DNA from: Ptychodera flava
Lineage: Eukaryota; Hemichordata; Enteropneusta; Ptychoderidae
Assembly (NCBI RefSeq): GCF_041260155.1
Contig: NC_091929.1
Coordinates: forward strand, 25,668,080 to 25,732,079
Length of the DNA: 64,000 bases
Direction: 5' to 3'
The notes beneath the pieces were generated by a model. That model was not told where the DNA came from. It did not search any database and was given only the letters and a program-made list of their open reading frames with translations. Each line of letters starts with the position of its first letter. Positions within the stretch are counted from its first letter, which is position 1. The position numbers and the translations under genes were made by a program. This document shows, piece after piece, positions 18,031 to 59,885 of this stretch.

Positions 18031-18049
18031 ATTCCACATTAAAGCCATC

Positions 18050-28867: not shown

Positions 28868-29003
28868 CACCCCCTCTTCAAAAAAAAGAAAATTTTTCAA
28901 AGAAAAATCTTTCTTTTACAAATGTAATCTTGAAAAGGATTTAAGTACTCAAATTTTGTTTTACTCTAAAGTAAAGTTTCTTGAAAGTGAACAATAATAA
29001 ACT

Positions 29004-29570: not shown

Positions 29571-29599
29571 CAGTTGTCGTTTGCAGTTTGGTATGGGAA

Positions 29600-30399: not shown

Positions 30400-31763
30400 T
30401 TCTCCAGGATTTCTGAGTTCTGAAGCTTGACCGAGCCCAGCTTTGAGTTTAGAGTATTTTCACTCAAGTCAGTTTCAGTATCACTATCTTCATAATGGTT
30501 TGAACTGACTGCACTGACAGGCTGAGTTATAGTAGGATTATCCCTATCAAAATATGGCTTAAGCATATTTATGTGACATAGCTGTTTTTGTTTTCGCCTG
30601 TCAGGTGTTATTATGATGTAATTTAAATCACTCAATTTCTTATCAATTAGGTATGGCCCAAAGTAACGAGCATGGAGTGGTTTGCCAGGAACCGGAAGTA
30701 GAACAAGAACTTTTTGACCTGGTTCAAACTTCCGTTTTGGGGTGTTTTTATCGTATTTGGTTTTCATTGACTGCTGAGATGACTCAAGATTTTCTCTGGC
30801 TAATTCACATGCTTTAGAGAGTTTCGTACGAAAATCTGACACATATTGCAAAATATTCAGACAATCATCATCGTCTGATAGGAATTTCTCTTTAATGAGC
30901 TTAAGTGGGCCACGGACTGTATGTCCAAATACAAGCTCAAATGGGCTAAAACCAAGAGACTCTTGAATTGACTCTCTAACAGCAAAGAGCAGAAAATGAA
31001 TTCCTTCATCCCACTGCTTCTCTGTGTCAAAACAGTAGGTCCTAATCATGTTTTTCAAAGTTTGATGAAATCGCTCAAGAGCACCCTGACTTTCTGGATG
31101 ATAGGCGGATGACCTACACTGTTTAATGCCTAGCTGATCCATTACTTGTTGAAAAATACCAGACATAAAGTTGGAGCCTTGATCGGACTGGACACATTTA
31201 GGGAGGCCAAATAAAGTGAAAAATTTGACTAAAGCTCTCACTATAGTCTTTGTCTTTATATTTCTCAGTGGTATGGCTTCGGGGAACCGAGTTGATGTAC
31301 ACATTATTGTCAGCATGTACTCATTTCCTGATCTTGTTTTGGTAGGGGCCCAACACAGTCTATTAGTATCCTACTAAATGGTTCTTGGAATGCAGGAATT
31401 GGCTGTAAAGGGGCCTTTGGAATGGTCTGATTTGGCTTTCCTACCATTTGACATGTGTGACAAGTTTTACAGAAATGTGCTACAGTCCTGCCTGAGATTA
31501 GGCCAATAAAAGTGACTGAGAATTTTATGATAAGTTTTCCTGACTCCTAAGTGACCAGCCCAGGGCGTTTCATGGGCCAGACGCAATATTTCAGCACGGT
31601 AGGGCTTTGGAACCACAATTTGATGTTTTATAGCCCAATCGTCATCAACCAAAACGTCTGGAGGTCTCCATTTACGCATGAGAATACCAGATTTTGTATA
31701 ATAGGAAACAGAGCTATCTGAAGTTTTACCTTCATCATCATCTACCCTGTCAAACAAAGACAA
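30400..31763 (-). pseudogene. Integrase region of the Gmr1-like element
   Basis: An HHCC-type N-terminal part (HETPWAGHLGVRKTYHKILS and FYWPNLRQDC) precedes the catalytic core with QSDQGSNFMSG and SSAYHPESQGALERFHQTL. A GPY/F-like module follows (ARYFGPYLIDKKLSDLNYI). It precedes the reverse transcriptase, which defines the clade. Confidence 0.8.
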
Positions 31764-31803
31764 AATATCTGGGTCTTTGTGTTGTTCTGCAATGAGATTT
31801 GAT

Positions 31804-32294
31804 CTAGAAAATGTCTGACTTGGTCAGCAGAAGTTTTACTGGAAGTTTCAAATCCACGAGGGATAACGGAATGCTCCGTGTCAAACACCTGACTGAGAAG
31901 GTGTCATTTAAGTCAACATCTGTGACATTATTTTTGAGAGTATTTTGATTCTCAGAAGTTTTCTTTGACATGGCTCGAGTAATGGCACATGATGGGAAAA
32001 GGCCGGGAATGTCTTCCTCTATTGGCTCTGGATTTTGATCTAAACTAGGATTATCAGTCACAAGTGGATTAGTAATGACCTTGTCCCCAGCAAGGTCGTT
32101 TCCAAGAAGAAGGTGAATCCTTCAAAAGGCAAAAAAGGCCTAATACCTAAAGCCACAGGTCCAGAAACAAAGTCCGAAGACAAATAGACATTATGGAGAG
32201 GAACAGGAATGTAGTCATTACAATCTACCCCCTTAATAAGAACTTTAGAACCTGAAAATGACTTTTCAGAAAACGGCAGGGTATCTGCCAACAA
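31804..32294 (-). pseudogene. Protease-position region of the Gmr1-like element
   Basis: Lies between gag and integrase, where the aspartic protease belongs. I see SGSKVLIKGVDCNDYIPVPL but no clear DTG-type active site in the preserved frames, so the assignment rests on position. Confidence 0.45.
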
Positions 32295-32496
32295 AAGAGA
32301 CTGGGAAGCCCCGGTATCTCTTAAAATTTTGACAGGGGTAGCGGAAGAGAAATCACTAGAAAGTGATATAAACCATCATGAATAAATGGTTCGAAAATAC
32401 CCATAATGCTATCTTGAGAAGAATTGACCTTGACCTCATTAATTGGGGATAAGAGGGGTTTAACCTCAGAAAATGTGTTGCACACATTATTAGACT

Positions 32497-33890
32497 CTAA
32501 TTGAGTGATGAAGAAATAAAGCCGGTTGGCTTAGATCCACTTTGACCACTTTGACCTTCACGTTTTCTTTTCAATTTGAAACACTCTGACATTAAATGGC
32601 CGTCTTTCTTGCAATAATTACAAGAAAGTGTACCGAACTGTTTGTCAGAAGGAGATTGAGACTTGGGATCTGATGATGTGGAAGTGTTACTTGAATTTTG
32701 TGAACTGTTGTCATTTGATTTCCTACTCTCCTTTGAAAAATTCTTGGATGAAAAGGAGGAGTTAAATTTACCTGCATTGTTTCTGTATGAAAAGGACTGG
32801 GATGGTTTGCTGAGAAATGAAGATTTGTGGGTCAACGAATAATCATCGGCCAACGTGCAGCAACCTCCAATGTATCTGCCTTTTGTTCATTGATAAACGT
32901 CTTGATGTCACTCCGGATGCACCTTTTAAATTCCTCAATCAAAACAAGCTGTCGTAATTTGTCATAATTCTGACTGACCTTTTCGAAGAACACCAACGAT
33001 CAAACAGTTGTTCTTTTGTTCGAGCAAATTCAACATAAGTTTGATCCTTCACCTTCTCACAATCCCTAAATTTCTGACGATAAGCTTCAGGCACCAACTC
33101 ATAGCCCTTGAGAATTAATTCCTTCACAGAATCATAATCTGAAGCCTGCTCTACTGACAACTGAATGTAAATTTCTCTGGCTTTACCCACCAAAGCACTC
33201 TGCAAAAGCATAGACCAGGACTCCTTAGGCCAATCCAGACTCTGAGCAATTTTCTCAAAATGAAGGAAATATTTATCAACATCCTTTTCTTGGAAAGGGG
33301 GAACTAACCTGAAATGCTTAGTGATGTCAAAATTGTCTGAAGGGAAGAATTTTCCTGACTTCCAAGCTCTAAACGTTCATTTCTAACTGCAGTTGGTGTT
33401 CTGCTAATTCTCTTTCCTTTTCTTTTTCCTCTCTTTCTTTCTTCCTTGTCTTTCTTCCATTTGCAATTCTTTTTCTTTCATTTCCAATTCCCTCTCTTTC
33501 TGTCTTTCTTCCATTTCTAATCTTTCCTGCCTTTCTTTTTCTTTCTGTCTTTCTTCCATTTGCAATTCTTTTCTTTCATTGTAATTGCATTTGTATTTTT
33601 TCTTTTTCTAATGCCAATTTTTTAAGCTCCAAATCTGCCTGAATTTCTAATTCTAATTTTTTGAGTTCGAAGGAAGACTCAGGCTCATAATCTTTTAAGG
33701 CAGACTCTTCAAAATGGCCAGAATTAACTAAATGTTTTGCAATCTTGAATTGAATTTCTCGCTTGCGCATAGATCTTTTGACATCTACTTTAAGGAAATT
33801 GGCCAGTGCAATGAGGTTGTCCTTTTTGAGGGAATCAAATGCGTCCTGATCAAGGTCATCCATAAATTCGTCTGGCTTGAATTCCGCCAT
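32497..33890 (-). pseudogene. gag region of the Gmr1-like element, SCAN-like
   Basis: Begins MAEFKPDEFMDDLDQD. Contains a region with KAREIYIQLSVEQASDYDSV and ELVPEAYRQKFRD, wording typical of the SCAN dimerisation domain of vertebrate zinc-finger proteins, which is known to derive from Gmr1-type gag. A zinc knuckle (CNYCKKDGHLMSEC) follows. Part of a broken polyprotein. Confidence 0.75.
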
Positions 33891-33972
33891 GATTGAATTT
33901 CGCTGAGTTCACAGTATACAGTAGTTTTGAAAAGGCAGGCAAAATGTTGTCAAACGGCTCAAAATATTCGTC

Positions 33973-33990
33973 TCCCGGACGAGCCCCCAA
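33973..33990 (-). other. Primer-binding site, tRNA-Pro type
   Basis: The minus strand reads TGGGGGCTCGTCCGGGA a few bases inside the 5' LTR. This is the sequence complementary to the 3' end of tRNA-Pro that murine-leukaemia-type retroviruses use. Confidence 0.8.
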
Positions 33991-33993
33991 TTT

Positions 33994-34567
33994 TGTTACG
34001 TGCAGAGAAAACGAACAAAAGGGTGAACTCAGCAGTTAACGTTTTAAACAAAATTTATTACGAAAATAAAACTAATTGCTAAGTCAGGGATAGAGTACAA
34101 GCTTTAAAAGTGTACAGACTACTTATCTCAGCTGGGACGGCAAAGCTCCAGTCTCAGAGTGTAACAGTCAGTCGGATGAATGAACAGTCCTTTGGCTTGC
34201 AGGCTTGAAGCTGCACAAAGTCCACAGTATAAATCCAGCGTTGACAGTGAAGGTCTTGGAAAGTCTTGAGAATGACTACTGCTGGAGTTTAGTAACACAC
34301 AAGAGACACGATCCCAAAAGTCTGACTGGAAGCTGTGCACGTCCCTTTTATAAAGGCATATAAGAACAATCTAGAACTTTTATTGACATGCTAATTACTG
34401 TTCTAAAATTATCTCCCTTACACAACTAATCAACTTTCCAGAACATTCCAAACATGACTAATTGAATTCAAGGTTGTGAGGTCATCAAGGGCAGTGACCT
34501 TGAGAATGTTCTAGACTAATTGAACTCAGGTCATGATGAGTGTGTGGGGGGAATGACCTACATAACA
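33994..34567 (-). repeat. LTR (5' LTR of the minus-strand element)
   Basis: The promoter copy for this element, with a TATAAAAG box at 34345-34352 on the minus strand. The CAAA duplication follows at 34568-34571. Confidence 0.9.
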
Positions 34568-35259
34568 CAAAGCAGTGGCCTTCATCTGTTCATGCCGATA
34601 ACATGTATTGATAGTGTCTATGTCTGGGGAATACATACTTTGAGACACTCTCTTGCTTTGGCGAGGGCACAGTCTCTCGGGGACTGTGGCCAGGGTGAAA
34701 CTTTTGCTTATATGTATACAAATTTCCCTCGATGTACGATATAAAACAATGAAAAAACAATACATTTAGGAATTGTTGGGTAAGAATTAAGTTCTTAAAC
34801 TCTGACCTAGTATTGTTTGTACATGTGTTTGATGTCATGAAATTTAGTATACGTCTATTTATAAGATCATGCTGGACGATGCTGGACGTCTTTGACACTT
34901 AAGTTTCTTTTGAAGTCTTCATTGATGTATTTTGACATTTGTTCAACGTTACCTGTTAATATTTTGCTGGCATTATATTGTAAGGCGAAATCCAAATCAA
35001 TGATTGATTTACGATATTTCATTCAAGTTCTACATGAAATCTTACAACACAAAACATGCATACAATATTTTCAGTCCTATCTTTCTGTAGCTGTGGGTCA
35101 CTGGTAGTGTTTTCCTCCCCATCTAAAAGTAATTTAGATATAGTAGTACCGTACACTAGTTTTCATGTCACATGTAGTCAAAATCACCAAACATAATCGC
35201 TGGGACTTTTTCCTTTACATTCCTTTTTATGCCATTGCATTGTCTTATTTGTAGCTGGA

Positions 35260-38090: not shown

Positions 38091-38878
38091 ACCCTTTGCA
38101 CCCCAAGGCCCTGGGGTTGAGTTGACATTTGGAAGTACCATCTAGTATGATGTCTGACTTCTTAAATTAGCAAAGAGTGTCCCCCATACCAATATATTTT
38201 TGGAATCACCATAAAATACTCGTCCCAAAAATATGCAAATTATGATCATGTGACCTCATTAAATATTCAAAATGGCCGCCAATATATAAAATTTTGTATT
38301 TTTTCAACATATTTCTTTATTTCCATAGGAATTCCTCAATAAATTATCATTTTTCATCACCAAATCATTGCTTTCTATCACACCGGCATGAACTGATACA
38401 ATATTGTGACAAAAATTATGAAAAAACACTGATATTTTGTATGGTTTTGGCCTACTAAGTGTAATGTAACAAAGGCCCTGTATAAGGGTTAGGTCAGTCA
38501 AAGCATAATGTAACATAACATCCAGCATCTCATATTATGAAATATTTCAAATGTTAAGTATGTATATTTTGAATGACAATGAAACACTTGTCCCAAAAAT
38601 ATGCAAATACTAGTCATGTGACCTAATTAAGTATTCAAAATGGCCGCCAACAATAGAAATTTATCATTTTTTAGTCCCCACGGACACCGTCCGGGGGACT
38701 TATAGGTTTGGTCATGTCCGTGCGTCCGTCCGTTCACGCAGATATCTCAGAGACGCCTGGAGCGATTTCGTTCAAACTTGGTACAAGGATAGTACCATAC
38801 CTCATACAGATGCACGTCGATTTGTTTCACAATGCGATCAAATTTGGCCGTGGTAGAGGACTTTTTAGTTTTCACCTC

Positions 38879-39109
38879 CATAGACTCCCATGTATAAGGC
38901 AGACCATAGACTCCCATGTATAAGGCAGACCATAGACTCCCATGTATAAGGCAGACCATAGACTCCCATGTATAAGGCAGTCCATAGACTCCCATGTATA
39001 AGGCAGTCCATAGACTCCCATGTATAAGGAAGTCCATAGACTCCCATGTATAAGGCAGTCCATAGACTCCCATGTATAAGGCAGTACATAGACTCCCATG
39101 TATAAGGCC
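38879..39109. repeat. 26-bp minisatellite, about nine copies
   Basis: The unit CATAGACTCCCATGTATAAG plus GCAGAC or GCAGTC is repeated about nine times with little change. Because 26 is not a multiple of three and the unit lacks minus-strand stops, all three minus frames stay open and give false repetitive ORFs. Confidence 0.95.
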
Positions 39110-39284
39110 AAGAAAAATAAAAATTTAGTTTCTCATCGTATTCATATTGCAAAAAGGATGCAGTGACACAGTTTTTAGTCCCCACAGATAAAGTCCAGGG
39201 GGCTCATAGATTGGGTCATGTCAGTCCGTGAGTCCATCCACGTGAGTCCATCCGTTCACGCAGATATCTCAGACACTTTGAAAA

Positions 39285-40860
39285 AATGTCATGTGACCTC
39301 GGTGACCTTTGACCTCGAATATACATATTTGTCCATAACTCAGTAACCACAAGTGGTAAACCTTTCATATATGGTATGATGGGACACCCTATGACGCCAC
39401 ATATTGTACCTCATTAATTATGTGCATATCTAATTTTGAGCGAGCCAATAGAGCTGGAGGTCTGATTTTTGGTATATAGGGATAACTTAGCAATACAATT
39501 TTTTTGACAAAATGTCACGTGACCTTGGTGACCTTTGACCTCAAATATACATATTTGTCCATAACTCAGTAATCACTAATGCTACACCCTTCATATTTGG
39601 TATGATGGGACACCTTATGACGCCACATATTGTACCTCATTAATTATGTGCATATCTAATTTTGAGCGAGCCAATAGAGCCAGAGGTCTGATTTTTGGTA
39701 TGTAGGGATAACTTAGCAATACAATTATTTTGAAAAAATTTAATGTGACCTCAATGACCTTTGACCTCAAATATACATATTTGTCCAAAACTCAGTAACC
39801 ACAAGTGCTACACCCTTCATATTTTGTATGATGGGACACCTTATGATGCCACATATTGTACCTCATTAATTATGCACATATCTAAGTTTGAGCGAGCCAA
39901 TAGAGCTGAAGGTCTGATTTTTGGTATATAGGGATAACTTAGCAATACAATTTTTTTGACAAAATGTCATGTGACCTCGGTGACCTTTGACCTCAAATAT
40001 ACATATTTGTCCATAACTCGGTAACCACAAGTGCTACAGCCTTCATGTATGGTATGATGGGACACCTTAGTAGATGGACACCTTATGACGCCACATATTG
40101 TACCTCATTAATTATGCACATATCTAATTTTGAGTGAGCGAATAGAGCTAGAGGTCTGATTTTTGGTATATAGGGATAACTTAGCAATACAATTTTTTTG
40201 ACAAAATGTCACGTGACCTTGGTGACCTTTGACCTCAAATATACATATTTGTCCATAACTCAGTAACCACAAGTGCTACACCCTTCATATATGGCATGAT
40301 GGGACACCTTATGACGCCACATATTGTACCTCATTAATTATGTGCATATCTAATTTTGAGCAAGCCAATAGAGGTAAATGTATGATTTTTAGTATATAGG
40401 GATAGACTATAGGATAGAAATTTTTTGACAAAATGTCATGTGACCTCGATAACCTTTTACCTAAAATACATGATTATGTCAATAAATAAGTAACCACAAG
40501 TGCTATGTCCTTTATATTTAGTAGGATGGGAGACCTAATGACAACACATGCTTTACCTCGTTAATTATGCCCATATATAATTGTGGGCAAGCCAATAGAG
40601 CTAGAGGTCTGAATTTTGGCATATATGGATTAATTAGCAATACAATGTTTTTTTTCAAAATGTCACGTGACCTTGATGACCTATGACCTTGAATATGCAT
40701 ATATATGCATAACTCAGTAACCACAAGTTCTTTACGCTTCAATTTTGATAGGATAATAGACCTTAAGATGTCACATCTTGTACCTCATTTATTATGCACA
40801 TATGTATTTCTTGGCTGGCCAATACAGCTAGAGGTTTGATCTTTTTTCCCGATTTAGAGC
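39285..40860. repeat. About 227-bp tandem array, seven copies
   Basis: Each unit carries GTGACCTYGGTGACCTTTGA, ATACATATTTGTCCATAACT, GGTATGATGGGACACC, TGTACCTCATTAATTATG and GAGCGAGCCAATAGAGC. Starts are near 39292, 39519, 39744, 39971, 40212, 40440 and 40667. The fourth interval has a 14-bp insertion, and the last two units are the most diverged. Confidence 0.9.
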
Positions 40861-42561: not shown

Positions 42562-42570
42562 AAACGTTGT

Positions 42571-42595
42571 TAGACTTGGTTCAAGTCGGTGAATT
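42571..42595 (+). repeat. Left terminal inverted repeat of the 17.3-kb transposon
   Basis: TAGACTTGGTTCAAGTC is followed by GGTGAATT. Positions 42573-42587 form a perfect palindromic arm pair (GACTTG, GTT, CAAGTC). Confidence 0.9.
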
Positions 42596-42742
42596 TAAAA
42601 AAAATAAAATAATTTATAATAGTTCTCTTGTGTCTCTCCTATTTTGTACAAACCTATCCGGAATTTGGCAGCTCACGCCAGGTTTTCCCAGCGATTGAAT
42701 GCGTCACGTTTGAGTCTGCGCAGTAGTGAGTTAGTTTCTGCC

Positions 42743-42769
42743 GGATTCACCGACTTGGACTTCTTGCAA
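42743..42769. repeat. Inner inverted repeat, left side
   Basis: CCGGATTCACCGACTTGGAC then TTCTTGCA. It is a reversed partial copy of the terminal repeat (AAGTCGGTGAAT) and pairs with the inner copy at 59684-59709. Confidence 0.75.
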
Positions 42770-44915
42770 AGTACAGGCGGTGAGACGGACTGTGTACACA
42801 GTGACGTCAAGCAAATACAAAATGATTGACAGCCCCCGCCGTTATTCTGGCCAATAAGAAGAACGCATGCTAATAAACCTCTGCATATATTAAAAAGTTT
42901 GTTGTCATCTCCGTGCAAAGCTACTTAGACATCGAGTACGTTTTAAATCTGGGCGAATAATGGCATCAAGTTCGTACATCAACCGCGTTTTACAACTGAT
43001 CGGTCGACCATCGCTAATCATGAGAGATTACCAAAGAAAGGTTGTTGAGAGTTACACTGAGGGAAAAGATTTGTTCGTCTGCGCACCAATCAGTAGCGGA
43101 AAATCACTGACATACAAAGTCCCCCACATTGATTTAATTTCCATTGCTTTGGACACGTAAGAGAACAACTACAACTGACATAATTGTAGTCTCCCCGCTT
43201 ATTGCTCTGATGAAAGAGCAAGTTCAGAAGTTGAGCGAAAGAGGACTGAAAGCTGTAGCGACTAGAAAGTTGACATGACCAGCATAGTGGAAGGCCGCTT
43301 CAATTACGTCTTCAGTAGTCCTGAAGCTTTCCTCTGCCAACATCGCTCACTGCTACTGTCTGATACTAATCAGAGCAGAGTTGGGGCAATATTTGTTGAC
43401 GAAAGCCATTGCATCAAGAAATGGTAAGTCTTTCTTGGACTTGGTTTGAATTATTTAAGATTTCCGTGTGTGGACGCAACTCATTCTGGACAAACCATCA
43501 GCATCTGACGATGCGTTAATGGGTTATTTCCGGTGCGGCATGATGATCAGTGCAAGAAAACTCGGTACGTTTTACTCACTGCAAAACACAGCTGGTGTTT
43601 CAATGGCATTTCAATTTTGATGTGTAAAAATATATTGTTGGTCATTTCAAGCCCATTGCCTAAACTATCTTTCTGTCATCAAACTGCCGTGCCAGGATTA
43701 TTGCATTGGTTTTGTCAGTTGTATTGGGTTATGCCAGAAAACGGTTATAGTCACTCATCGCGGTCCCTGTCTTCCCTCAGCTCCGCTGGAGTTTACGCAC
43801 CATAATCCGTGCCAAGAAAACTCATGATAATTTTTTAACTACCTGGTAATGCAACTGAAATGCATCGGCCGATATCTAAGAATCATTTTGTCTGTTTTTT
43901 GGTTTTTTGTTTGTTTTTTTTTTTTAGGGGGGGGGGTTCGACGCATGAAATCAACAGTGGCGACTTAGATTTCTGCACTCTAGTAGAGATGTCGGCTATT
44001 TCCTTCATGCAAAACAGCAAAGCAGGAGGTAAAACTTGCCTTGGAATTAATAAGGCACATCCTTTATAGGAAAACGTCATGCGTTGAAATTCGTCACTTT
44101 TTTATTTATGCAAATAAACAGAAAACAGCTAATGTTTTTTTTTTCTCACAAAACCATGGAGGTAGAAGCAAGACATAGAACTGCTTTGCAATCAACCTAA
44201 TTTGTATACATGCTGTAATTACTGTGTTGCTATCTCTAAAAATCCTAATTTATTATTTACAGGGGCAAAGAAGCTCAGGCCGGTATGAAAGCATTTAGAC
44301 AACACTACGGGCAGTTAGGTCAACTGAGGTCCCTGCTTCCAGCTAAAGTTCCGGTTGTTACACTTACTGCCACAGCAACATCGGGGACAAGGAAAGTTAT
44401 CATCGATGATCTGTGTATGAAAGGATGTGAAGTGATCATTGAAAACCCAGATAAACCTAATATCAAGTATAATGTCATCAACACAGATGATGATTTAGAG
44501 ACTGTATTCATGTGGCTTGTAGATGAAATCAAACTAAAGCAGGCGGAGACTCCACGTGTCATAATCTTTTGTAGGAGAAGACGACACTGCTCAGAACTGT
44601 TTGAATTATTTTCAGTCAAGCTTGGAAGCCACGCGTTTTATCAATATGAACACAAAGGACAAAATGATGACCGTAACCGATATTTTGCCATGTTCCATTC
44701 AAAGACAGATGATGTGATTAAGGAGTCCATAATTTCATCATTTCAAAAGCCGAATGGCATAGTACGGGTGGTATTTGCTACATCAGCTTTTAGTATGGGG
44801 ATGGATTTAAAGAGTGTTGATCAGGTCATCCATTTTGGTCCCCCAAGTGATGTAGAAGGTTATTTGCAAGAAACGGGAAGGGTTGGGAGAGATAGAACAA
44901 CTCAGAGCAGTGCCA

Positions 44916-47900
44916 TCCCCAGGCGAAAGTGAACATGGTCAACCAGGAACTAACATGTTAGTTCATGGTCATATGACCATGGTGTACCATGTTAATTCAT
45001 GGTCAACCATTGACGACCATGTTTGTTAAATGGCACAAATTACTATGGTCTACCATCGTCAACCATTGCCAAAAAACCGTGGTCAGCCATGGCTATATGA
45101 CCGCGGTCAACCATAGATGACCATGTTTGTTTAATGGCACAAATTACTATGGTCTAACATGGTCAAACATGGCCAAAACTCATGGTCAATCATGATCAAC
45201 CACAGCCACCACCGTGGTCAATGACAGGTGACCATGGTTTTTAAGAGTGTTATGAACTGTGCACCAAGTTTGGGCAATAGTAAAAAATATATATTTGCAC
45301 AGAGAAGTAGAAGTTAAATTGTGTTTGTTTGTATGGAGTGTGCATGAAGATTAGGGGCGGGGTTCATATGAAAGGCATAGTAACTGCTGGCTCAACAACA
45401 GCATACACACTACCTGTAATATTTCACGGTATTCAGGTTATTGTAAATCCTGACATTGTCTTTTCCACAGCAATTCTAACAGTCAGCATGTGGTACATGA
45501 CATCATTGTGCTGCTTCTTCCCCTGTATTGTATACAAATGATAGTTTTCTAAAGTGACATATAAATGTACCCAGTACCCAGTAACTCTTTTGATACGTTT
45601 ACCTTGTGAGCAGCAGATTCTAAAATTCACCTTGGAGTCATGTATACAGATGCCAGAAGGTCTGAACAGCCATGAAAAAGTTGAGAGGATATACTTCCAA
45701 CACGTCTTCATTCCAGTGGACACATTCAATCACACTTGACTTTAAAAGAAAAACCTTCTCAGGCAATAAATGTTTCATTAAAAAAAAATATATTCATGTA
45801 CAATAAAACAAATATCTCTTCTATTATGAACATACAATAATTGTAGTTTCAACATGAAATGAGCTGTTAAATATATGTTTTCATTGTAAATATTAGTTAG
45901 ATACAAAATAAAAACGTTTGTACTTTGATCTATTATACTGGATACTGAATGCAAAATATTAATGTTAGTAGAAAACATATCTCTATATGTTGGAAGAATA
46001 ACCAACATTTTAGGAAATGAATTATACATGAAAGTCTGTTGATAAATTCTGTCTGTTTAAAAATGCTTTGACAGATTATACAGATACGTCATCACAAAGT
46101 GAAACATCACAAATTTTTAACGGGTACATGTTAACTGATAAAAATGTATCAATATTGAATTTAGTGTTAGAAGAATAATGCTTATAAATTCTTGGTACTT
46201 TTGTTGATATCTTTTTTGGATTACACGTACTAAGTGCAATCTGATAATGGAATATACAAAAAAAATCTGTCCTTTGAAAGACCTGGAACGGTAAGATCAA
46301 CAGATCACAATATTTAAAATGTGTATCAAATGGAAACTGATCAGTTAAAAAATGTTATGTTAAATTCACATAATTATATATATAAAAATCTAACTATGAA
46401 AAACTTATTCAAAAACTTTGCAATTTTTGTTACATGTAGTTTGTTGACAAATAAATTTCACTTTATATATTTTAAAATGCCTTTCCTGAAAATGAAGTGT
46501 ACATGGAAAACATGAGAACTTTGATTTGATGTTTTATCATTAGATGTTGAGTTTCAGCCAAAATAAACAAGGCATCATGGTAAATAATGTTCTATTGCTA
46601 CATGTAAAAATCAGGATCAGCTGAGTCTGTGGTGTCCTTCATGGTAAGAGCTGATGAACAGTAAAACTTGCAAAAGAAATGAATCACAGTACAAACCATG
46701 CCACCACCCGCACTACTTGGAAAGAGAGTAGTTGTATCAAGTCCGAAAACATTTCTTCCATCATTAAGACATCGAATGATCGGCACCTGAGACGAAATAA
46801 AACTGTATCATGTCCGATTTATACTATGTTACTCCTATGCACTGCATGCAGTAGAGTTGCTACCATAAGTACCATACCAATCCATAATCGATATGAACAG
46901 AGATCACTTCTTGTCGCCATATGTTCTCAACTTCTCAAAGATCAGTGGTTGGTTTGAAATAGTCCCCTAAGGTGTGGAAAGTGTCGAAGTAGCAAACTCT
47001 CAGTTGAAACGTCACGAAAAGGCTGGAAAATTCAACATGTCCAAGGCCGGCCATTACACTGTAAATAACGGACATCCACTGATCAAAGTTTAACTTACAT
47101 AAACTCTAAGTGTCTAACGCAGGCAACGTCCTTCAATCATTACAGTTGTTCTCCTAAACCTCTTCTGTGTTCCCTTCATCGTCGACTGAGAGAAGTAATC
47201 GACGATTTCTCCCAAAAACCGTGGCTTAATGGAGTGAATGATTATCCAGACTCACATATTCCAACACTGGAATTCAGCAAAAATGGCAACCTTGGCAAAA
47301 TTGGCCAATCAGAAGTCTTGTTTTACAACACGTGATGTTGTAAGGTCAAAGTTCGAATACATGATGATCTGTTTGACCTGTGACCTCCTGGCTGCTGCCG
47401 CTGCCTTTTCAAACATTAGTTTTGCGAGAATGGGAGAGTATATTACTTTTATGCCAACTTTTATACACTATAAATCAGTCAGTGTACCTCTATGGCCTTC
47501 CGACATGTATGATTATGCAAGTAATGATCGTGAGTAGTCAGATTTTAAGCCAATTACCTTTCTAAATGTGTTTGCATGTATCAACGTAGGACAGTAACAC
47601 TTTCTGATCGACACATGACTGAGGCAATGGCCTTATTTAGTGCTCGGTGCTACATGGCAACACAGAAAAACCTTGAACAGGGCCCATGGGCTACATTGCA
47701 GCAAATTCAGTGGTATGACTTGTAAACCAAACAAAAAATTGTAGTTTCTTTTCCTGAAATTCGTCACGGATTTTTTGAAACTTATCATTTAAAAACATTA
47801 ATGTCCAGAGAAATAACCTTCATGCATTGATGTTTTTCAGTACATTTATTTCATATTCCAAGGTAATGGTTTGATAAATTTGTGCATTCCACAAATTGTC

Positions 47901-48454
47901 CTGTCTAATTTTTTTTTCAAAACATAGTATTTCTCAAATCATTAATCCTTTGACTTTTCTTTTTCTTAAGGATTATGTGGTAATTTACAGTACATACCAC
48001 CTATAACTTACTTCGATTTTGTTTATTTATTGAGTGATTATGATATTTGGTATCCTGTTGTCTTCATCGTTGGACACATGTGTTAAATTCTGCCTGAAAA
48101 TATTCTTTATGATTTGTTGAAGAGAATTTTGCAATATTACAATTTAACCAAAATAAAAATCTAAAACATGGTCATCAAGAAAATTGGTCATTCTAGGACG
48201 ATGGTCAACCATTGTCATTGATAACGATGGTCAGAAATATAATCAGTCATCAAATAACATGGTTGACCATGGTTGCCGACAATCATGAACAGATCAGCGA
48301 TGATAGACCGTGGTCAACTGTGATAGACCAAGGTATTTGACTGCTTACTGTGGTCTCATATCATAGCCAACCATGGTAGTTCATGGTCAAACATCAAAAA
48401 CCATCAAATACCCTGTTGATCATGGTACATCACAGTTGACATTTCGCCGGGGTC
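44916..48454. mobile_element. 3.5-kb GACCATGG-word transposon, copy 1, inserted in the helicase
   Basis: The element spans 44918-48452, with tips CCCAGGCGAAAG and TTTCGCCGGGG and a TC target duplication (44916-44917, 48453-48454). Removing it with one TC restores the helicase frame (codons GCC ATC TTA TTG). About 330 bp at the left end and 290 bp at the right are packed with CATGGTCAACCATG-type words. No transposase was found; the longest conserved ORF is 83-99 residues (47238-47537). Nearly identical to 51499-55004. Confidence 0.85.
47283..47537 (+). CDS. Small ORF inside copy 1 of the GACCATGG element
   Basis: It reads MATLAKLANQKSCFTTRDVV and onward to SDMYDYASN. The counterpart in copy 2 (53846-54100) has the same reading apart from one residue near the end. 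Preservation between copies may just reflect their youth. No domain is recognised, and an alanine-rich stretch (LLAAAAAFSN) is the only feature. Confidence 0.3.
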   Translation: MATLAKLANQKSCFTTRDVVRSKFEYMMICLTCDLLAAAAAFSNISFARMGEYITFMPTFIHYKSVSVPLWPSDMYDYASNDRE

Positions 48455-49310
48455 TTATTGCTGTACAAAGGGTGCTTAAGGGGAAGAAATATTGATACAT
48501 CAATGCGAGACTATGCTAAAAATACTGATAGTTGTCGACGTCAATTGTTAATGAGAGAGTTTAATGAAACCACTGAGTATGGTGTCATTGCACATGCTTG
48601 TTGTGATATTTGCAGCCATATATGTAGATGTGCATGTACCTGTGACAAAAATCAAATCTGCACATGTGTTAGGGGTTGTGCATTCGAATATGTGTCCAAG
48701 GCAGAACAAGAGCTAAGATCAATGTCAGAGAGATTAAACAAGGAAAGAAATATTTTCAGTCAGTTGGAGGTCAAACACAGTGTAACACCACAGCAAAGGC
48801 AGTTTTTTTCCACTGAACTTGCTGAATACAGGTGCAGTTTAGTGTCAGAGATTGGTGAGCAATGCATATTGACATCAGATATAGCCACTGGGTTTTCCTC
48901 AGCTCTTGTCAACAGTCTTGTTAAGTACTGTCAATACATTGACAGCAAGGAAATGCTAGAAGAGTACTTTCCATTTTTCTCACATGAACATATTTCTTTT
49001 GTTTGGGATTTACTGTGTGAGATGTTAGAAACAAATTCGCTTCATCTGGAGTCTCCATGTTCAAATGAGATGATGATTGACTGACATTATTGTTCTGAGG
49101 AACCTTTGAATGCTATTGTACTTGACAGTGATGATGATGACATAATTCAAGCATACAGGTCAAAGAGACCACAGATCTTCAGTGATTTTTCAGATGATGA
49201 CTGAACAATTTACATGTACTCTGGTCATTGCCTCCAGTGTCAGTGAGAATTGCTGTTTTATCCATGTCATGAATTCAATTCTACATTGAATTTAGTAGTA
49301 CTTCTGTTAT

Positions 49311-50825
49311 TGCCCTTACGAAAATAGTCTGTAGATATTCTATTGATCTCTGATATTCTATAGAAATTCTGTATATTTTATGGAAATCTGATGGAAATAT
49401 GCTTCCATTGAAATTCAATTGAAAATTTTCAATACAATTCTGTAGAAAATTTAAATTTTATAGAATTTAATGTGTATAGAAACTTTAAATTCTATTGAAG
49501 TTTGCTGATAATTTTCTGTAGAAAATCTGCAGAAATTAAACTATTTTTTATGGAATGTTTCAGTTCCATAGCTTTTGTGGAAATTTTTTTTCTGTTTTTT
49601 TTTTCCCACAGTTTACACTGTTTCAGACTTAAGTTCATGTTTTTGCATGTTGGCATGAGCTTTGATAAGAACTGAGTGACATATATATAGCTGGTTTCAA
49701 TATGGAAAAGGTAGTGACATATACCTATGGAGAGTTCTAAGCACATTCTCGTGTACCCTTTAATTCTGAAAAGTTATTTTCATTTACACACACGTGCCAG
49801 GAAAATGTATACAGTTTCAATTGTACCATTCCTTTTGTACATTTCATGACTGTACACAGACCAACCTGACTCTCTTTGTTAGATCCTAGGTCAAGTGAGC
49901 TGACCTGTGCCTGTGCTTTGTTATGCAAATAGTTTCCTGCCTTTACAATGGGCTGATTACATAATAGTGTAGCCACGCATTATTCATTTGAACTTGAGGC
50001 AGTCCACACTGCATATGGCTCTTATGAAAAGTACTAAAGTTCAACTCCAAATTCCATGGAAAATTAGGATCCAAGGTCCATTAGCAAGATTCTAACAGTG
50101 TTATGGAGAAGAGAGCTCACTAATATGTCACAACTGTAAGGATCCACATTGCAGCATCAACTGAAAATTACGTGAGTTAAGATACACAACACTTTAATTA
50201 TGCACTTGGCTGAGTTGACAACTCAAAACTGCTAGACTGGAGAGGTAGGCCTTGCATTCATATGTGTTGGTTGCTTTATATTTTGTAGTCCCTGTATGTT
50301 TCATCAAGTTTCGAACGATTGTTAATCATAATTCTTTTAGAAATAAACTACATGTTTATGATTTACTTGCTGCCTGATTTTTGTGAGTTTTGCAGTCATT
50401 CATTGCATTTGTATCTATGGCAATATCATAAGGTGGTGCTCCTTACTTATAAAAGTTTAACACATATTGTTGTCATACTTTCTAAGAGATTGAACTCGTA
50501 TAAACTTCTGTAAAAGAGTGCAGAAATTAAATATAGTTCTACAGAAATTCTACATAAAAATTCTGTAGAATGTGGTATAAATTCAATATAGTGCTACAGA
50601 TATTCTGTAGAACGTGTATCGAATTTCCATAGAAATTCTGTAAATTCTACAGAAATGATACAGAAATTCTGTTGAATTTCTACAGAAAAAGGGGGCCAAA
50701 ACTCCATTAAACTCCGTTAATTTCCATAAAGGTTCAGTAGAATTTCTGTAGAAATTCTGTATCACTTTAATTGAATTTTGTCATCAATTTCAATAGAATT
50801 TCTACAGAAAATTTTCATGAGGGTG
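49311..50825. mobile_element. 1.5-kb element rich in TCTGTAGAAATTC words
   Basis: The element spans 49313-50823. The tips are CCCTTACGAAAAT on the left and CCCTCATGAAAAT read inward on the right, flanked by a TG duplication (49311-49312, 50824-50825). The first 270 bp and last 310 bp are packed with TTCTGTAGAAATTC-like words in both orientations. No ORF of note. It sits in the gap between the two convergent genes of the host transposon. Confidence 0.75.
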
Positions 50826-51156
50826 AGGACATTGCAGAGCTTACTTAAGCAAAAATTCATCAAGTTTACAACATTTGTGTTTTGCTTCAGCAACAGCTTT
50901 CATTGTATTGCTTTGCTATGTAGTAGTAAAACAATGTGTCCCTATTTGTAAATAAATCAATGTAAATAACATTGCTGTTTGTATATGTCAACATGGTATC
51001 AATTTCAATTATACATGTGAATGAACTTGTGTTGTCACTCTCTACACAGACAACGTCTACAAGCATTACAGACTGAACTTGCACAACTCTAACTCAACTG
51101 CAAGTTACTGTATCATGAAATGACCAATTCTATGCATACATTTAGTGTTCCAGTGT

Positions 51157-54100
51157 TTATACATTATGATTGTAATGTTTTGAGGAAAACTTTCTCAAAC
51201 TGTTTTTCATCCATTGCTTGAACGCTGCCATGTCCAACTTTCCAAGGATATTTGCTGGTATTTTCTCAAAAGCTCTGTGCTTACGCCCTGGTTTGTCTTC
51301 AACAACTCTGCAACTCTGAAATGTTGAACCAATGCTTGTACATCTTCGTCTGTGTTTGCACTGGTATGCTTCCCTGATGGTCTTCGTACCTGTGTCTGTC
51401 TGTTGTAGTTTGCTGTTATGGCTTCGGTAATGTTAAGGCTACGCGACACCTTATCAACCATTCTTTGTGTGATTTCCCCTCTGTAGCTGTTGACATCACC
51501 AGGCGAAAGTGAACATGGTCAACCAGGAATTAACATGTTAGTTCATGGTCATATGACCATGGTGTACCATGTTAATTCATGGTCAACCATTGACGACCAT
51601 GTTTGTTAAATGGCACAAATTACTATGGTCTACCATCGTCAACCATTGCCAAAAAACCATGGTCAGCCATGGCTATATGACCGCGGTCAACGATAGACGA
51701 CCATGTTTGTTAAATGGCACAAATTACTATGGTCTAACATGGTCAAACATGGCCAAAACTCATGGTCAATCATGATCAACCACAGCCACCACCGTGGTCA
51801 ATGACAGGTGACCATGGTTTTTAAGAGTGTTATGAACTTTGCACCAAGTTTGGGCAATAGTAAAAAATATATATTTGCACAGAGAAGTAGAAGTTAAATT
51901 GTGTTTGTTTGTGTGGAGTGTGCATGAAGATTGGGGGCGGGGTTCATATGAAAGGCATGGTAACTGCTGGCTAAACAACAGCATACACACTACCTGTAAT
52001 ATTTCACGGTATTCAGATTATTGTAAATCCTGACATTGTCTTTTCCACAGCAATTCTGACAGTCAGCATGTGGTACATGACATCATTGTGCTGCTTCTTC
52101 CCCTGTATTGTATACAAATGATAGTTTTCTAAGTGACATATAAATGTACCCAGTACCCAGTAACTCTTTTGATACGTTTACCTTGTGAGCAGCAGATTCT
52201 AAAATTCACCTTAGAGTCATGTATACAGATGCCAGAAGGTCTGAACAGCCATGAAAAAGTTGAGAGGATATACTTCCAACACGTCTTCATTCCAGTGGAC
52301 ACATTCAATCACACTTGACTGTAAAAGAAAAACCTCAGGCAATAAATGTTTCATTAAAAAAACAATATATTACTGTACAATAAAACAAATATCTCTTCTA
52401 TTATGAACATACAATAATTGTAGTTTCAACATGAAATGAGCTGTTAAATATATGTTTTCATTGTAAATATTAGTTAGATACAAAATAAAAACGTTTGTAC
52501 TTTGATCTATTATACTGGATACTGAATGAAAATATTAATGTTAGTAGAAAACATATCTATATATGTTGGAAGAATAACCAACATTTTAGGAAATGAATTA
52601 TACATGAAAGTCTGTTGATAAATTCTGTCTGTTTAAAAATGCTTTGACAGATTATACAGATACGTCATCACAAAGTGAAACATCACAAATTTTAACGAGT
52701 ACATGTAACTGTTTATAAAAATATATCAATATTGAATTTAGTGTTAGTCGAATAATGATTATAAATTCTTGGTACTTTTGTTGATATCGTTTTTGGATTA
52801 CACGTACTAAGTGCAATCTGATAATGGAATATACAAAAAATGCAAAATCTGTCCTTTGAAAGACCTGGAACGGTAAGATCAACAATTAAAACGTGTATCA
52901 AATGGAAACTGATCAATTAAAAAATCTTATGTTAAATTCACATATATATATATATAAATTTAACTATGAAAAACGTATTCAAAAACTTTGCAATTTTTGC
53001 TACATGTATTTGTTGACAAATAAATTTCACTTTATATATTTCAAAATGCCTTTCCTGAAAATGAAGTGTACATGAAAACATGAGAACTTTGATTTGATGT
53101 TTTATCATTAGATGTTGAGTTTCAGCCAAAATAAACAAGGCATCATGGTAAAACAATGTTCAATTGCTACATGTAAAAATCAGGATCAGGTCTGTGGTGT
53201 CCTTTACATGGTAAGAGCTGATGAACAGTAAAACTTGCACAAGAAATGAATCACAGTACAAACCATGCCACCACCCGCACTACTTGGAAAGAGAGTAGTT
53301 GTATCAAGTCCGAAAACATTTCTTCCATCATTAAGACATCGAATGATCGTCACCTGAGACGAGAATAAAACTGTATCATGTCCGATTTATACTATGTTAT
53401 TCCTATGCACTGCATGCAGTAGAGTTGCTACCATAAGTACCATACCAATCCATAATCGATATGAACAGAGATCACTTCTTGTCGCCATATGTTCTCAACT
53501 TCTCAAAGAACAGTGGTTGGTTTGAAATAGTCCCCTAAGGTGTGGAAAGTGTCGAAGTAGCAAACTCTCAGTTGAAACGTCACGAAAAGGCTGGAAAATT
53601 CAACATGTCCACGGCCGGCCATACACTGTAAATAACGGACATCCACTGATCGAAGTTTAACTTACATAAACTCTAAGTCTCTAACGCAGGCAACGTCCTT
53701 CAATTATTACAGTTGTTCTCCTAATTCTCTTCTGTGTTCCCTTCATCATCGACTGAGAGAAGTAATCGACGATTTCTCCCAAAAACCGTGGCTTAATGGA
53801 GTGAATGATTATCCAGACTCACATATTCCAACACTGGAATTCAAAATGGCAACCTTGGCAAAATTGGCCAATCAGAAGTCTTGTTTTACAACACGTGATG
53901 TTGTAAGGTCAAAGTTCGAATACATGATGATCTGTTTGACCTGTGACCTCCTGGCTGCTGCCGCTGCCTTTTCAAACATTAGTTTTGCGAGAATGGGAGA
54001 GTATATTACTTTTATGCCAACTTTTATACACTATAAATCAGTCAGTGTACCTCTATGGCCTTCCGACATGTATGATTATGCAAGTAACTATCGTGAGTAG

Positions 54101-57100
54101 TCAGATTTTAAGCCAATTACCTTTCTAAATGTGTTTGCATGTATCAACGTAGGACAGTAACACTTTCTGATCGACACATGACTGAGGCAATGGCCTTATT
54201 TAGTGCTCGGTGCTACACGGCAACACAGAAAAACCTTGAACAGGGCCCATGGGCTAATTTGCAGCTATTCAGTGGTATGACTTGTAAACCAAACAAAAAA
54301 ATTGTAGTTTCTTTTCCTGAAATTCGTCACAGCTTTTTTGAAACTTATCATTTAAAAACATTAATGTCCAGAGAAATAACCTTCATGCATTGATGTTTTT
54401 CAGTACATTTATTTCATATTCCAAGGTAATGGTTTGATAAATTTGTGCATTCCACAAATTGACCTATCTAATTTTTTTTTCAAAAAATAGTATTTCTCAA
54501 ATCATTAATCCTTTGACTTTTCTTTTTCTTAAGGATTATGTGGTATTTACAGTACATACCACCTATAACTTACTTCGATTTTGTTTATTTATTGAGTGAT
54601 TATGATATTTGGTATCCTGTTGTCTTCATCGTTGGACACGTGTTAAATTCTGCCTGAAAATATTCTTTATGATTTGTTGAAGAGAATTTTGCAATATTAC
54701 AATTTAACCAAAATAAAAATTTAAAACATGGTCATCAAGAAAATTTGTCATTCTAGGACGATGGTCGCATTGATAACGATGGTCAGAAATATAATCAGTC
54801 ATCAAATAACATGGTTGACCATGGTTGCCGACAATCATGAACAGATCAGCGATGATAGACCGTGGTCAACTGTGATAGACCAAGGTATTTGACTGCTTAC
54901 TGTGGTCTCATATCATAGCCAACCAAGGTAGTTCATGGTCAAACATCAAAAACCATCAAATACCCTGTTGATCATGGTACATCACAGTTGACATTTCACC
55001 GGGGCAGTCTTGAATGCCTTGTTGTCGTGTTCGATGTCCAAGTCCATTGGATGGTTTGTGTACTCCTTTCCTGCCAGTTGACACTTCTGTTCCATGTCAG
55101 TTGGTATGCTTTCCGTGGTGTAAGAAGGCAACTGACTTGTGCCAGCTACTCGAGTATTGCATACGCATATTTTGGACAGTTGGAAACCTTGAAGTATAAA
55201 TAAAAGAATTTGTACAGCCTGATGATTCTACCACCGTCCCCCATATGTATAGCGTTATTGTGGTCACGTCTCAGGAGACACAGCATCAGTGCATGGCGGG
55301 GGTAGTTAAGAACTCCATCATCTTCATTGTCATCTCTCCCAGCATCTGGTTCAGTGTACTCAGCGTGTTTAACCTCATGGTTCTTTAGGTTACCATTGCG
55401 TGCAAATTCTCTCTCACAGTACCTGCACTTGTATTTTCTTCCATCAGGTTGCAATTGTGGAATATCACTGATCACATAGGCCTTTACAAATTTCTTTGCT
55501 TCCGATAGGATATATTCCTTCTTATCATCAATGGAATCATGGTTACCTGTGAGGTCAAATAAAACATGACAAACTGTCAATGAAGGACAAAATTGGTGTG
55601 TACATACAATCATTAAAAGATAAACTGGCCAGACATATTTTGGGGCCTGTGTGTGTTTTGTTTGCAACACTGGAAACACAGGAAATTAAATTTTTCTGCA
55701 AGTTCTCCCCTTTCCCTAGTTTTTTTTTTAATAGCACCCTTCCCGGAGCCACAGTTGTTTGATCAGCTAGCTTGTTTATTGTGTTGTATACTATTTTGTA
55801 AGTTATGCCATACAATGCTCTTAACTGAGAGTTGTCCCGCAGTAAAGGTCATTGTCTGGTTTTTTTTGTATTTGTGTTTGTGTGTGTGTGTGTTGGGAAT
55901 AAATCAGTCTGTCATAAAACCATGTTTCTTTACCTTCAAATACATTATGTGTTGGTGTATCTTCGACATCACTCATATTGAAGTGCTTCAGAGCCCCAGT
56001 GACAAGGTGACCATCTTTGAATTTATCAAGTAGCTCTGATGATGCATAGAAATTTTTTGCCGGATCACTGTACATTCCGTTAGTTGATTGCATTCTGGGC
56101 TGCATGCAAAGTATCTATATCCCAACATGATGCTGTTGAGTAAGGTGGAGCCAAATCACCTGGAATGCAAAGAAGATAGAATGTATATAATTTACCAGAA
56201 ATACAAAGCAGCTAGAACCATTACCAAAAGTGGGTAAAATCTCTAGCTATTTACCCACCATGTCTTTCAGTCGAGCTGCTGTAGCCAGAAACTACTGAGT
56301 CACCAATGTAGGACTTCAAGTATTTTACACAAAATCAGATTCCAATAACCATAATGACCAACTTGACTTGCAGTGTTTCGTAAAGCGATGGTTGTTCTAC
56401 TCCTTGTAAAGTGCATGGTTTTTTTTTTTTTTACAATCGATTTTCAACTGACCATGAAACTGACTTGATAACTCAAAGTTTAAACCATTTTACAATTTAT
56501 GTTAATTTATGTTGTGCAATGAAGATGGTGTACCTTTTGCCACTCAGCCTGAACATGGAAATCCTCCACCTTAGGGATCAGTCCCTCTATTCTGCTACTT
56601 GGAGTTCTGCCATCTCTCTTTGATGACTGTGCTTCTTTATGGCGCTCGAAAGTCAGATAGTCACCACCACTAAGGACTTTCACTGGTTGTTCATCTGTGT
56701 CAACACTGTGACCAGGCACATAAGCATGAAGATACTCAACGATGTCAATCATATATTCTCAATATTGCTCATTTTATCCAAAACTCCCAGATAAACCTTT
56801 AAACAATAAACAAAAGTTGTAATAATTATGAGACAAATACAACCTATGCAATTATCAGCAGATGGGGTGAACATTTGTTTTCAGGACACCTTAAATCATT
56901 CTTGTCAATACCAGAAACCTTTAAGTTTTGTACTAATACAGATCTAGTCAATTTGTGTATGTCTTTGTATTTGTATATTTCTAATATAAAACATAATACT
57001 TTACTTTTACATGCATAATGAAGTGGGATCATTCCAGCTCCTGGAACATTTATTGTCATGACAAATAAATGTCACAATAATTTCACTTAAGTTAATTATA

Positions 57101-59541
57101 TTTTTAATTTCCAATTACATTGCATAAACTCATACCTTCTCTGTCTTCTTCTTCATGCTCTCCATATTTTCATGATGCATTGTTTGGTCTACATGGATAC
57201 CATAATCTGCAATTGAAGGGATATACTTGGACCATGTCCAAGTAACAAGTAAGGCCATCTCTTCAATGAGCGTAGACTGATCCTCTTCACTTGGCAGAAA
57301 CTGCTTCAGTGGGACAGCCAACGGATTTGCCTGGGGCTTATCATCTGGCAGATGATGACCTGCAACCCTGTTTTTATAGGCAACTAGGTGGTAGAGATGG
57401 TGATCTTTGTTTTGATTGGACTGTGTTATCTGTCTGACATGATGTCTGATATCAACATTGTCCCCAGTGAAAGAGTATCCAGGGTGCATCTGTTGTCGCA
57501 CTTGTTTCAGCTCTTCCTCTAGGGCTGAATACTGTAGAACTGTGTCCGGTGTAGTGTGGTTATTAGTCAAATCTTCATCTGCATGTATCTGTTGTAATTG
57601 GCATTCTACCTCTCTTTCTCTCCTTGACCAATGTTCCACCTCGTTCTTCCAAAATATTCAAGCATGGAACTGGTACATCCATATCCAACGCAAACATACT
57701 GTGCAGCCAGCTGTTCAATTGCCACCTTCTTGAGCCCACCCTTCTTCATCATTACGGAATTCAGCCTCCTTACAGTGTTGAGATCATCATTATAAATGGA
57801 AATCACGTGTGCTGCAGCAGACATTACCTTAGGAACAAGGCTTTCCCCTTTCTTAAGTTTGTTTCTGTTCTGACTTGGATTCTTGGTAGCAGCTTCGAGG
57901 ATCATAAGGAATAGCGGAGTACGATCTTGTAATTCTTTGAGGAGATTCGCCCAGCTAAAGTCACGCAAACTGTCAACACCTGCAGTACATGAAGCAAAAC
58001 ATCAACACAGAAAATAATCTATTTTGTTAAAACATGTCAACACGAAAAATACCTCTTTTGTTGTGAAAAATAATTCATTTTTCCTTTTTAACATTTACGC
58101 CGGCAGTGAATTAAACACTGATGTATTTATTACTTTTGTGACAGACATATCTTTTGAAAATTATCAACTAAAATGTCACTCTTGCAGTCGATCAAAAAAT
58201 ACACTACCTACAGCACAAGAAAGCAATTATATTTCAAACCTTAGACAATCTTCCATTACATAGGAATTCTATACTGATCTTCAGTTTGAATACCCCTCTG
58301 CTAAAAAGCAGAAAGTAACATAGTACAAAGCATAGACAGTAGAGTTTCTCTACTGTCTATGTACAAAGCTAGTTCTTTAGTAGTTGTTGAAAAAATCCGT
58401 TGTCACTTTAGCGTAATTGTTTATCTAGTGCATTTAGGCAAATAAGACAGAGTAAACATAACTATTTACTGACAGCATTAGTCAAATAAGACAGAGTAAA
58501 CAGCAATTTTATTACCTGCATATCTCAACAATGATGGGTTCGTCAAAGAACACAGGCCTGCCAATTCTGAATTGATTTTGCAGCACAGTTGTTTCATTAT
58601 GGCATCAGTCAGCTGACAACCACTGAGTAGGTCTTTTGCAGCATTTTCAGCTGAAGTTGTCACCATTTTCTTTACAAGGTTTTTGATGTTATGTTGTGGC
58701 TTGTATGTTCTGGTTCCCGAGGTGGCATACTTAATCATTACCTGCGAATTAAAATGATGGAGAACGTATTTATAATATTATCAGCAACAATGCTTTCATG
58801 AAGATTTACGGGACATAACTTTTAGTTCTGTTTCTTGTTGTACAATTTCTCTGTGAAGTTCGCCGTCTTTTATTTTTGTCAGTGGTTTTTCTGCTTTGAG
58901 TTGCATCCCATCATCGTACCTTTCATTCGCCACAATGACGCAACGAGGTAATGAAAGGGAAACATACACAAACTGTTTGAACGAAAATAACACTAAGAAC
59001 ACCGGCAAAATAAACGACTGTTGGCACGTGAACAAGTAAGGGTACCTTCCCGAAATGACAACAATAGACACACGAAACTCACCAGGACATCGCCATCGAC
59101 CATATCAACTGTCTCACACCCCGTCGATGGCGTCTGCAAGTCTGCGCTGTACTTAGTGTTAGTAGCGTCGAATAGGACCCTTTTGCTGGGCCTTTGGTTT
59201 TCGCAGGGAACTAGCCGCTTGACAACTTCTTCTTTGGTCCCGATAGTTGATCGTGTTGATTTGAACTGCTGTCGGAACTGCTGGAGGTGTTTCAGCAGAG
59301 TCGATGCCCGATTGCTGCACGATCTGCAACTCACATGAGTGTGCAGAAAGGGGTCGAGACTTGCACCGACGGCAAACTCTATTTCTTCACAGGACGGTGT
59401 CTTTTTTCCATCCTTGAATAACCGGCGACGATTTTCGCATTTTGCAACATGGGCCCCACAAACAACACAGATATTTTCACGCGTTTTCGGTGATACAACA
59501 GAGGTCGTGCTGACTTTTGTGGGAGTGATCGCACTCGACAT
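51157..59541 (-). pseudogene. DUF6589-type transposase of the 17.3-kb transposon, disrupted
   Basis: Exon 59083-59541 starts MSSAITPTKVSTTSVVSPK. It carries a Cys-rich finger (ICVVCGAHVAKC and HVSCRSCSNRAS). Further exons are 58516-58741, 57136-57979, 56534-56757, 55934-56159 and 55007-55546, continuing beyond a 3.5-kb insertion at 51157-51496. DUF6589-like landmarks in order are SLRDFSWANLLKELQDRTPL; SFTGDNVDIRHHVRQITQ; MIDIVEYLHAYVPG with LSGGDYLTFERHKEAQ; a C2H2 finger (CRYCEREFARNGNLKNHEVK..H); and LNYPRHALMLCLLRRDHNNA, IHMGDGGRIIRLYKFFYL, KYAYAILE, AYQLTWNRSVN and HPMDLDIEHDN. The Asp of GDN, Asp of GGD and Glu of DLDIEH are my candidates for an RNase H-fold D, D, E triad (inference). 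Frame defects lie near 57640, near the ILE of KYAYAILE, after WNRSVN and near 51280. An extra exon near 58800-58930 is possible. Confidence 0.8.
51497..55006. mobile_element. 3.5-kb GACCATGG-word transposon, copy 2, inserted in the transposase gene
   Basis: The element spans 51499-55004, in the same orientation as copy 1, with a CA duplication (51497-51498, 55005-55006). Removing it with one CA makes the minus-strand frame continuous (AAG ACT GAT GTC AAC, reading FKTDVNSYRGEI). The interior matches copy 1 closely, with scattered small indels, so the two copies are recent relatives. Confidence 0.85.
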
Positions 59542-59683
59542 TTTGTCAACAACGCCATGTGAGTTTTATGCACGTCTCGTTTGGGTCAATTGGTAACTCC
59601 TCCCAATATGTAAAATTTAGTGATGTCATCTTATGAATAATATATGAGCAAAGAAAACGTCATCTCATGAATAATTTATAGCA

Positions 59684-59709
59684 ACGCAAACCCTGCAAGA
59701 GTCCAAGTC
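59684..59709. repeat. Inner inverted repeat, right side
   Basis: TGCAAGAGTCCAAGTCTGTG then ATTCCGG, the mirror partner of 42743-42769. It lies 167 bp inside the right end, against about 172 bp on the left. Confidence 0.75.
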
Positions 59710-59740
59710 TGTGATTCCGGGTGAAACTCAGCTGTATAGC

Positions 59741-59847
59741 GTTCACTCCACTCATCGCGTTCACCCCACTCATCGCGTCCACTCACGCGCGCGCGCGTTT
59801 CACATGAAAGCAGAATACAAATCATTGCGTTCACTCCACTCAAACAT
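59741..59847. repeat. Subterminal repeats GCGTTCACTCCACTCATC
   Basis: At least four variants of CGTTCACTCCACTCA lie between the inner and outer right repeats, with a (CG)n-like CGCGCGCGCG run between them. No equivalent array is seen on the left. They could be transposase binding sites (inference). Confidence 0.6.
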
Positions 59848-59851
59848 TCAC

Positions 59852-59876
59852 AAATCACAGACTTGAACCAAGTCTA
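59852..59876 (-). repeat. Right terminal inverted repeat of the 17.3-kb transposon
   Basis: Read inward on the minus strand it is TAGACTTGGTTCAAGTC followed by TGTGATTT. It matches the left end over about 22 of 25 bases, with the same palindromic tip at 59860-59874. Confidence 0.9.
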
Positions 59877-59885
59877 AAACGTTGT

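Follow-up and report, generated by a model that had tools for sequence, protein, structure and literature searches.

Within the window, as we call the whole 64-kb stretch of DNA analysed here, we found that the segment 42571-59876 is a real, correctly bounded transposon and that this copy of it is dead. It encodes a RecQ-like helicase and, facing it, a protein of the family DUF6589 (PF20231). We give a probability of about 0.78 to the reading that it is a dead cut-and-paste DNA transposon of AcademH type. Its duplication length and its helicase make it most likely a new member of that group, so that a known group would be extended rather than a new one founded.

Boundaries and terminal repeats

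The following features define the ends of the element (inner repeats by alignment).

42562..42570, no strand: left 9-bp target-site duplication AAACGTTGT
42571..59876, no strand: entire transposon of 17,306 bp, counting the two nested 3.5-kb inserts
42571..42587, plus strand: left outer terminal inverted repeat TAGACTTGGTTCAAGTC, 17/17 bp; 26 bp at 92% when extended
42733..42768, plus strand: left inner (subterminal) repeat, inverted relative to 59694-59728
59694..59728, minus strand: right inner (subterminal) repeat
59860..59876, minus strand: right outer terminal inverted repeat, reverse complement of TAGACTTGGTTCAAGTC
59877..59885, no strand: right 9-bp target-site duplication AAACGTTGT

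The 9-bp duplication and the matching ends had been claimed in a first-pass annotation, and comparison of the sequences within the window showed the coordinates to be exact and both features to be perfect. AAACGTTGT occurs in the 64-kb window only at 42562 and 59877, its reverse complement is absent, and the TAGACTTGGTTCAAGTC ends have no other occurrence there. A 9-bp direct repeat with an adjoining exact inverted repeat of at least 14 bp was found once in the window and in none of 20 first-order Markov shuffles (repeat spacing 0.5-30 kb). When the inverted-repeat requirement was lowered to 8 bp, there was again one case in the window, and 6/20 shuffles had a single case as well; the case therefore rests on the length of the inverted repeat. 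This end configuration, unique in the window, bears out the proposal that both genes belong to a single mobile unit. The boundaries had also rightly been called complete, yet what they enclose is a non-functional relic in which approximately 7 of 17.3 kb are two later insertions.

The ends had further been described as double inverted repeats, and this holds for the second inverted pair, which lies about 150 bp inward of the ends and scored 44, while none of 200 shuffles went above 24. An additional inversion between outer and inner repeat within the left end depends on 11 exact bases: TTCACCGACTT, contained in the left inner repeat (42746), is the reverse complement of AAGTCGGTGAA, located at 42583. 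This match alone reaches 22 points, which is not above the shuffle maximum of 25 and not significant. A search against Rfam gave 0 matches at gathering score. The 17-bp end was also used as a pattern in viral contigs, where the single matches in each of 11 contigs were taken as chance on a rough estimate.

The RecQ-like helicase gene

Gene models were built by tblastn with 7 helicase and 6 DUF6589 relatives. Together with Pfam they confirmed the convergent pair that had been proposed, with the helicase on the plus strand and the DUF6589 gene on the minus strand.

42960..49081, plus strand: RecQ-like SF2 helicase gene, decayed, split by insert A (Pfam, tblastn)

The helicase was recovered in tblastn blocks at 43020-43424, 44264-44917 and 48446 to 49198 at most. 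On the plus strand, Pfam domains Helicase_C (4.7e-18) and RecQ_Zn_bind (3.8e-6) were found, and DEAD (1.2e-5) at 25.5 bits, slightly below its cut-off of 26. No nuclease family exceeded its cut-off in the 10 pieces of the element scanned with Pfam. Helicase_C and RecQ_Zn_bind thus place the element on the helicase side of the distinction between AcademH, with a helicase, and AcademX, with a nuclease.

Relatives of the helicase were abundant, with at least 7,791 of 7,996 scored candidates passing. Among the best 120, the closest came from Ptychodera flava, at 54% identity with 66% of the query aligned, and the next named relatives were from Mytilus and Haliotis. A tree of 35 rows, made up of the window helicase and 34 of these best 120 relatives, with no cellular RecQ of animals as a control, separated the window helicase and relatives P0001-P0017 from 17 other RecQ rows with support 100/100; P0014 and P0015 formed long branches. 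A cysteine motif past the helicase core, CCDxC...CxC, was present in 10 of P0001-P0017 versus 0/22 in P0018-P0039. Searched by sequence against solved structures, relative P0001 matched 37 sequences, with bacterial RecQ first (134 bits) and human WRN next (103).

The DUF6589 gene

The second gene and its motifs are located as follows (gene by Pfam, tblastn and alignment; motifs by alignment).

51172..59541, minus strand: DUF6589 (PF20231) gene, probable transposase, split by insert A'
59469-59311, minus strand: CxxC...CxxC, N-terminal part of the protein
57468-57445, minus strand: GDNVD motif
56668-56642, minus strand: GGDYLTFER motif
55427-55365, minus strand: C2H2 finger, between the second and third acidic motifs
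55038-55012, minus strand: EHDN motif

The minus strand matched DUF6589 (PF20231) at 2.5e-8. The HMM check against this Pfam family, proposed along with the original claim, placed one exon of the window protein at 33.5 bits, above the gathering cut-off of 27. Relatives P0122 and P0125 scored 116.8 and 167 bits against the same family, which is listed as having no assigned function. The protein could be followed by tblastn from 58741 to 51172, and by eye its cysteine-rich N-terminal part (59469-59311) looks like the start of relative P0132.

The window protein itself retrieved 6 relatives among 7,994 scored candidates, and a 6-row alignment retrieved 21 among 7,992, giving 25 different relatives overall from corals (Stylophora, Paramuricea), molluscs (Saccostrea, Haliotis) and others. 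No helicase domain was found in the 14 relatives with listed Pfam domains, a count to be read with 11/25 having none listed and with a length limit that disfavours long fusions. Saccostrea and Haliotis occur in both the helicase and the DUF6589 lists, an overlap that fits a shared element, if weakly.

For the motif analysis we aligned 24 of the 25 relatives, omitting P0124, whose gene model is fused to a reverse transcriptase. Among the rows covering each position, GDN.D was conserved in 20/20, the G and D of GDYLTFE in 15/15 and 16/16, respectively, and EH.N in 11/11. The window copy carries all three acidic motifs. The predicted structure had a mean pLDDT of 66.8 and no confident RNase-H fold, with all three motifs in stretches below 50. 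With this model, of low confidence at the motifs, Foldseek returned no match at E ≤ 0.001; a sequence search of solved structures with the DUF6589 profile gave two matches only (E 0.81 and 0.83). Judged from its sequence, the DUF6589 protein is probably the transposase of the element, and this probable assignment is where the modest novelty lies.

Scans for related loci used collections of viral contigs and prokaryote genomes that are not meant for animal genomes. There the 6-row DUF6589 alignment gave 23 pattern matches in viral contigs and 52 in prokaryote genomes, and helicase P0001 gave 30 matches in viral contigs, with 0 confirmed in each case. These scans of viral contigs and prokaryote genomes revealed no other locus that links a helicase with DUF6589.

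Decay of the copy and nested insertions

The first account of the unit gave its boundaries correctly and left two nested 3.5-kb repeats and the broken reading frames unmentioned.

44919..48452, no strand: nested insert A, 3.5 kb, inverted ends CCAGGCGAAA/TTTCGCCGGGG, in the helicase coding sequence
51499..55004, no strand: nested insert A', 96.7% identical to A, in the DUF6589 coding sequence, CA/CA flanks

The helicase gene has an in-frame stop codon at 43158-43160, and its frame changes between about 43150 and 43270 and then returns. In the DUF6589 gene, tblastn and ORFs indicated stops or frame changes at about 57.66, 56.1, 55.15, 55.07 and 51.29 kb, part of which could be introns. We regard the copy as dead, given the stops or frame changes in both genes and the 3.5-kb repeat that interrupts each of them. 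Without both inserts the element measures about 10.3 kb.

No clear flank duplication was seen for insert A, and neither A nor A' has a stop-to-stop ORF longer than 154 codons. Their right end is 79% identical to 18357-18597, a stretch located downstream, by 1.3 kb, of an ORF (14341-17049) that matches Transposase_21. By this resemblance to an end near a Transposase_21 (EnSpm/CMC) gene, and lacking such an ORF of their own, the inserts appear to be non-autonomous elements of EnSpm type. The possibility that A and A' are mobile-element introns, raised by their position within coding sequence, was dropped, as no frame-restoring splice sites were seen by eye in the helicase.

A separate EnSpm-like element occupies 14341-18602, with a 902-codon ORF (Transposase_21, 2.3e-8); of its two ends only the right one, TTTCGCCGGG near 18602, could be located. 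It is probably an autonomous relative of A and A'.

Probable affiliation with AcademH and alternative readings

AcademH is the group of Kojima 2020 (Mobile DNA 11:15), as cited in the excerpts of PMC10045372 and PMC10799480. According to the former, AcademH elements have duplications of 9 or 10 bp and a helicase, AcademX elements have a nuclease and duplications of 3 or 4 bp, and the accessory enzyme may be related to duplication length in Academ; the excerpt of the latter describes AcademH as known at low copy number from three groups of fungi. Academ is also mentioned in PMC10294476, PMC12210899, PMC8290104 and PMC9783078, whose excerpts hold no comparable sequence or ends. The element studied here resembles AcademH, as compared by description only, in its helicase gene, in a perfect 9-bp duplication that falls within the 9-10 bp stated in PMC10045372 as excerpted, and in its animal host (inferred from the relatives). 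Terminal inverted repeats, a trait of the class in general, are present with 17/17 bp and the inner pair. If the assignment is right, AcademX belongs to the same superfamily and differs, in the excerpted account, by its 3-4 bp duplication and nuclease from the 9 bp and helicase found here. The first-pass annotation had suggested comparison with AcademH. This was an apt suggestion, as the PMC10045372 excerpt gives AcademH these two traits, a helicase and duplications of 9-10 bp.

The element might instead represent a distinct superfamily, combining a helicase with a DUF6589 transposase and resembling AcademH only in duplication length. Here the link between DUF6589 and Academ is drawn from description and not from sequence. 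A search of one literature collection on DUF6589 and PF20231 gave no relevant paper, none there naming DUF6589 and the one PF20231 hit being unrelated, which is no proof that the link is unpublished. Against this, Kojima's AcademH paper reportedly names animals and fungi in its title, and a 9-bp duplication with a helicase gene is the very combination stated for AcademH in the excerpt of PMC10045372. We therefore consider a distinct superfamily improbable.

A helicase-carrying Kolobok, of the KolobokH kind or like Kolobok-1_CCri, appears very improbable. Kolobok elements have TTAA as their target-site duplication, whereas the duplication here is the 9-bp AAACGTTGT, and the partner protein matches PF20231. 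The likeness lies in the pairing of a RecQ helicase with a transposase, known from KolobokH and Kolobok-1_CCri and, in the latter, with the helicase on the complementary strand (PMC9587614, in excerpt), so that helicase and convergent layout alone do not single out AcademH; the same excerpt gives KolobokH as found only in fungi. Although only a single copy was seen, it is scarcely credible that two host genes lie between chance repeats or that the segment was carried by another element, given that the 9 + 14 bp configuration is absent from all shuffles, that the ends are found only here in the window and that both genes are decayed.

Proposed mechanism and implications

For the favoured AcademH-type element we propose that the DUF6589 protein would be a DDE-type transposase, with candidate acidic residues in GDNxD, GDYLTFER and EHxN. 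It might bind the double ends via its zinc fingers, cut them and join them to the target with a 9-bp stagger, and the RecQ-like helicase might unwind the ends or the joint DNA during excision or when gaps are repaired. Once inserted, the copy would have decayed and gained two EnSpm-like insertions, one per gene.

A single mobile element whose ends are defined would thereby link the DUF6589 family with one branch of the RecQ-like helicases, which would allow annotators to mark gene models of both kinds as derived from transposons. It is plausible that many of the RecQ-like and DUF6589 models are transposon genes, and the occurrence of such models in corals, molluscs and other groups is compatible with this and goes no further. 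The co-occurrence of helicase and 9-bp duplication also bears on the idea, put forward for Academ in the PMC10045372 excerpt, that accessory enzyme and duplication length are related. A more far-reaching view, which we hold to be unlikely, is that DUF6589 constitutes a DDE transposase family that works with its own RecQ-like helicase (marked by a cysteine-rich C-terminal tail) on double inverted ends. Many coral, mollusc and hemichordate helicase and DUF6589 models would then be transposon genes, and a third lineage beside AcademH and AcademX would be possible.

Other features of the window

Between the convergent helicase and DUF6589 genes, at 49334-50811, there are TTCTGTAGAAATTCTA-type repeats, several of them mutually inverted. 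A tandem array at 39277-40845 consists of 6.9 copies of a 226-bp unit; shortly before it, at 38877-39108, lie 8.9 tandem copies of a 26-bp unit. On the minus strand, 28294-34569 holds an LTR-type element with direct repeats of about 576 bp that are 99.5% identical. Its integrase ORF (31370-29994) precedes its RNase H ORF (29618-29004), an arrangement opposite to that usual in Gypsy elements and like that of Gmr1-type elements.
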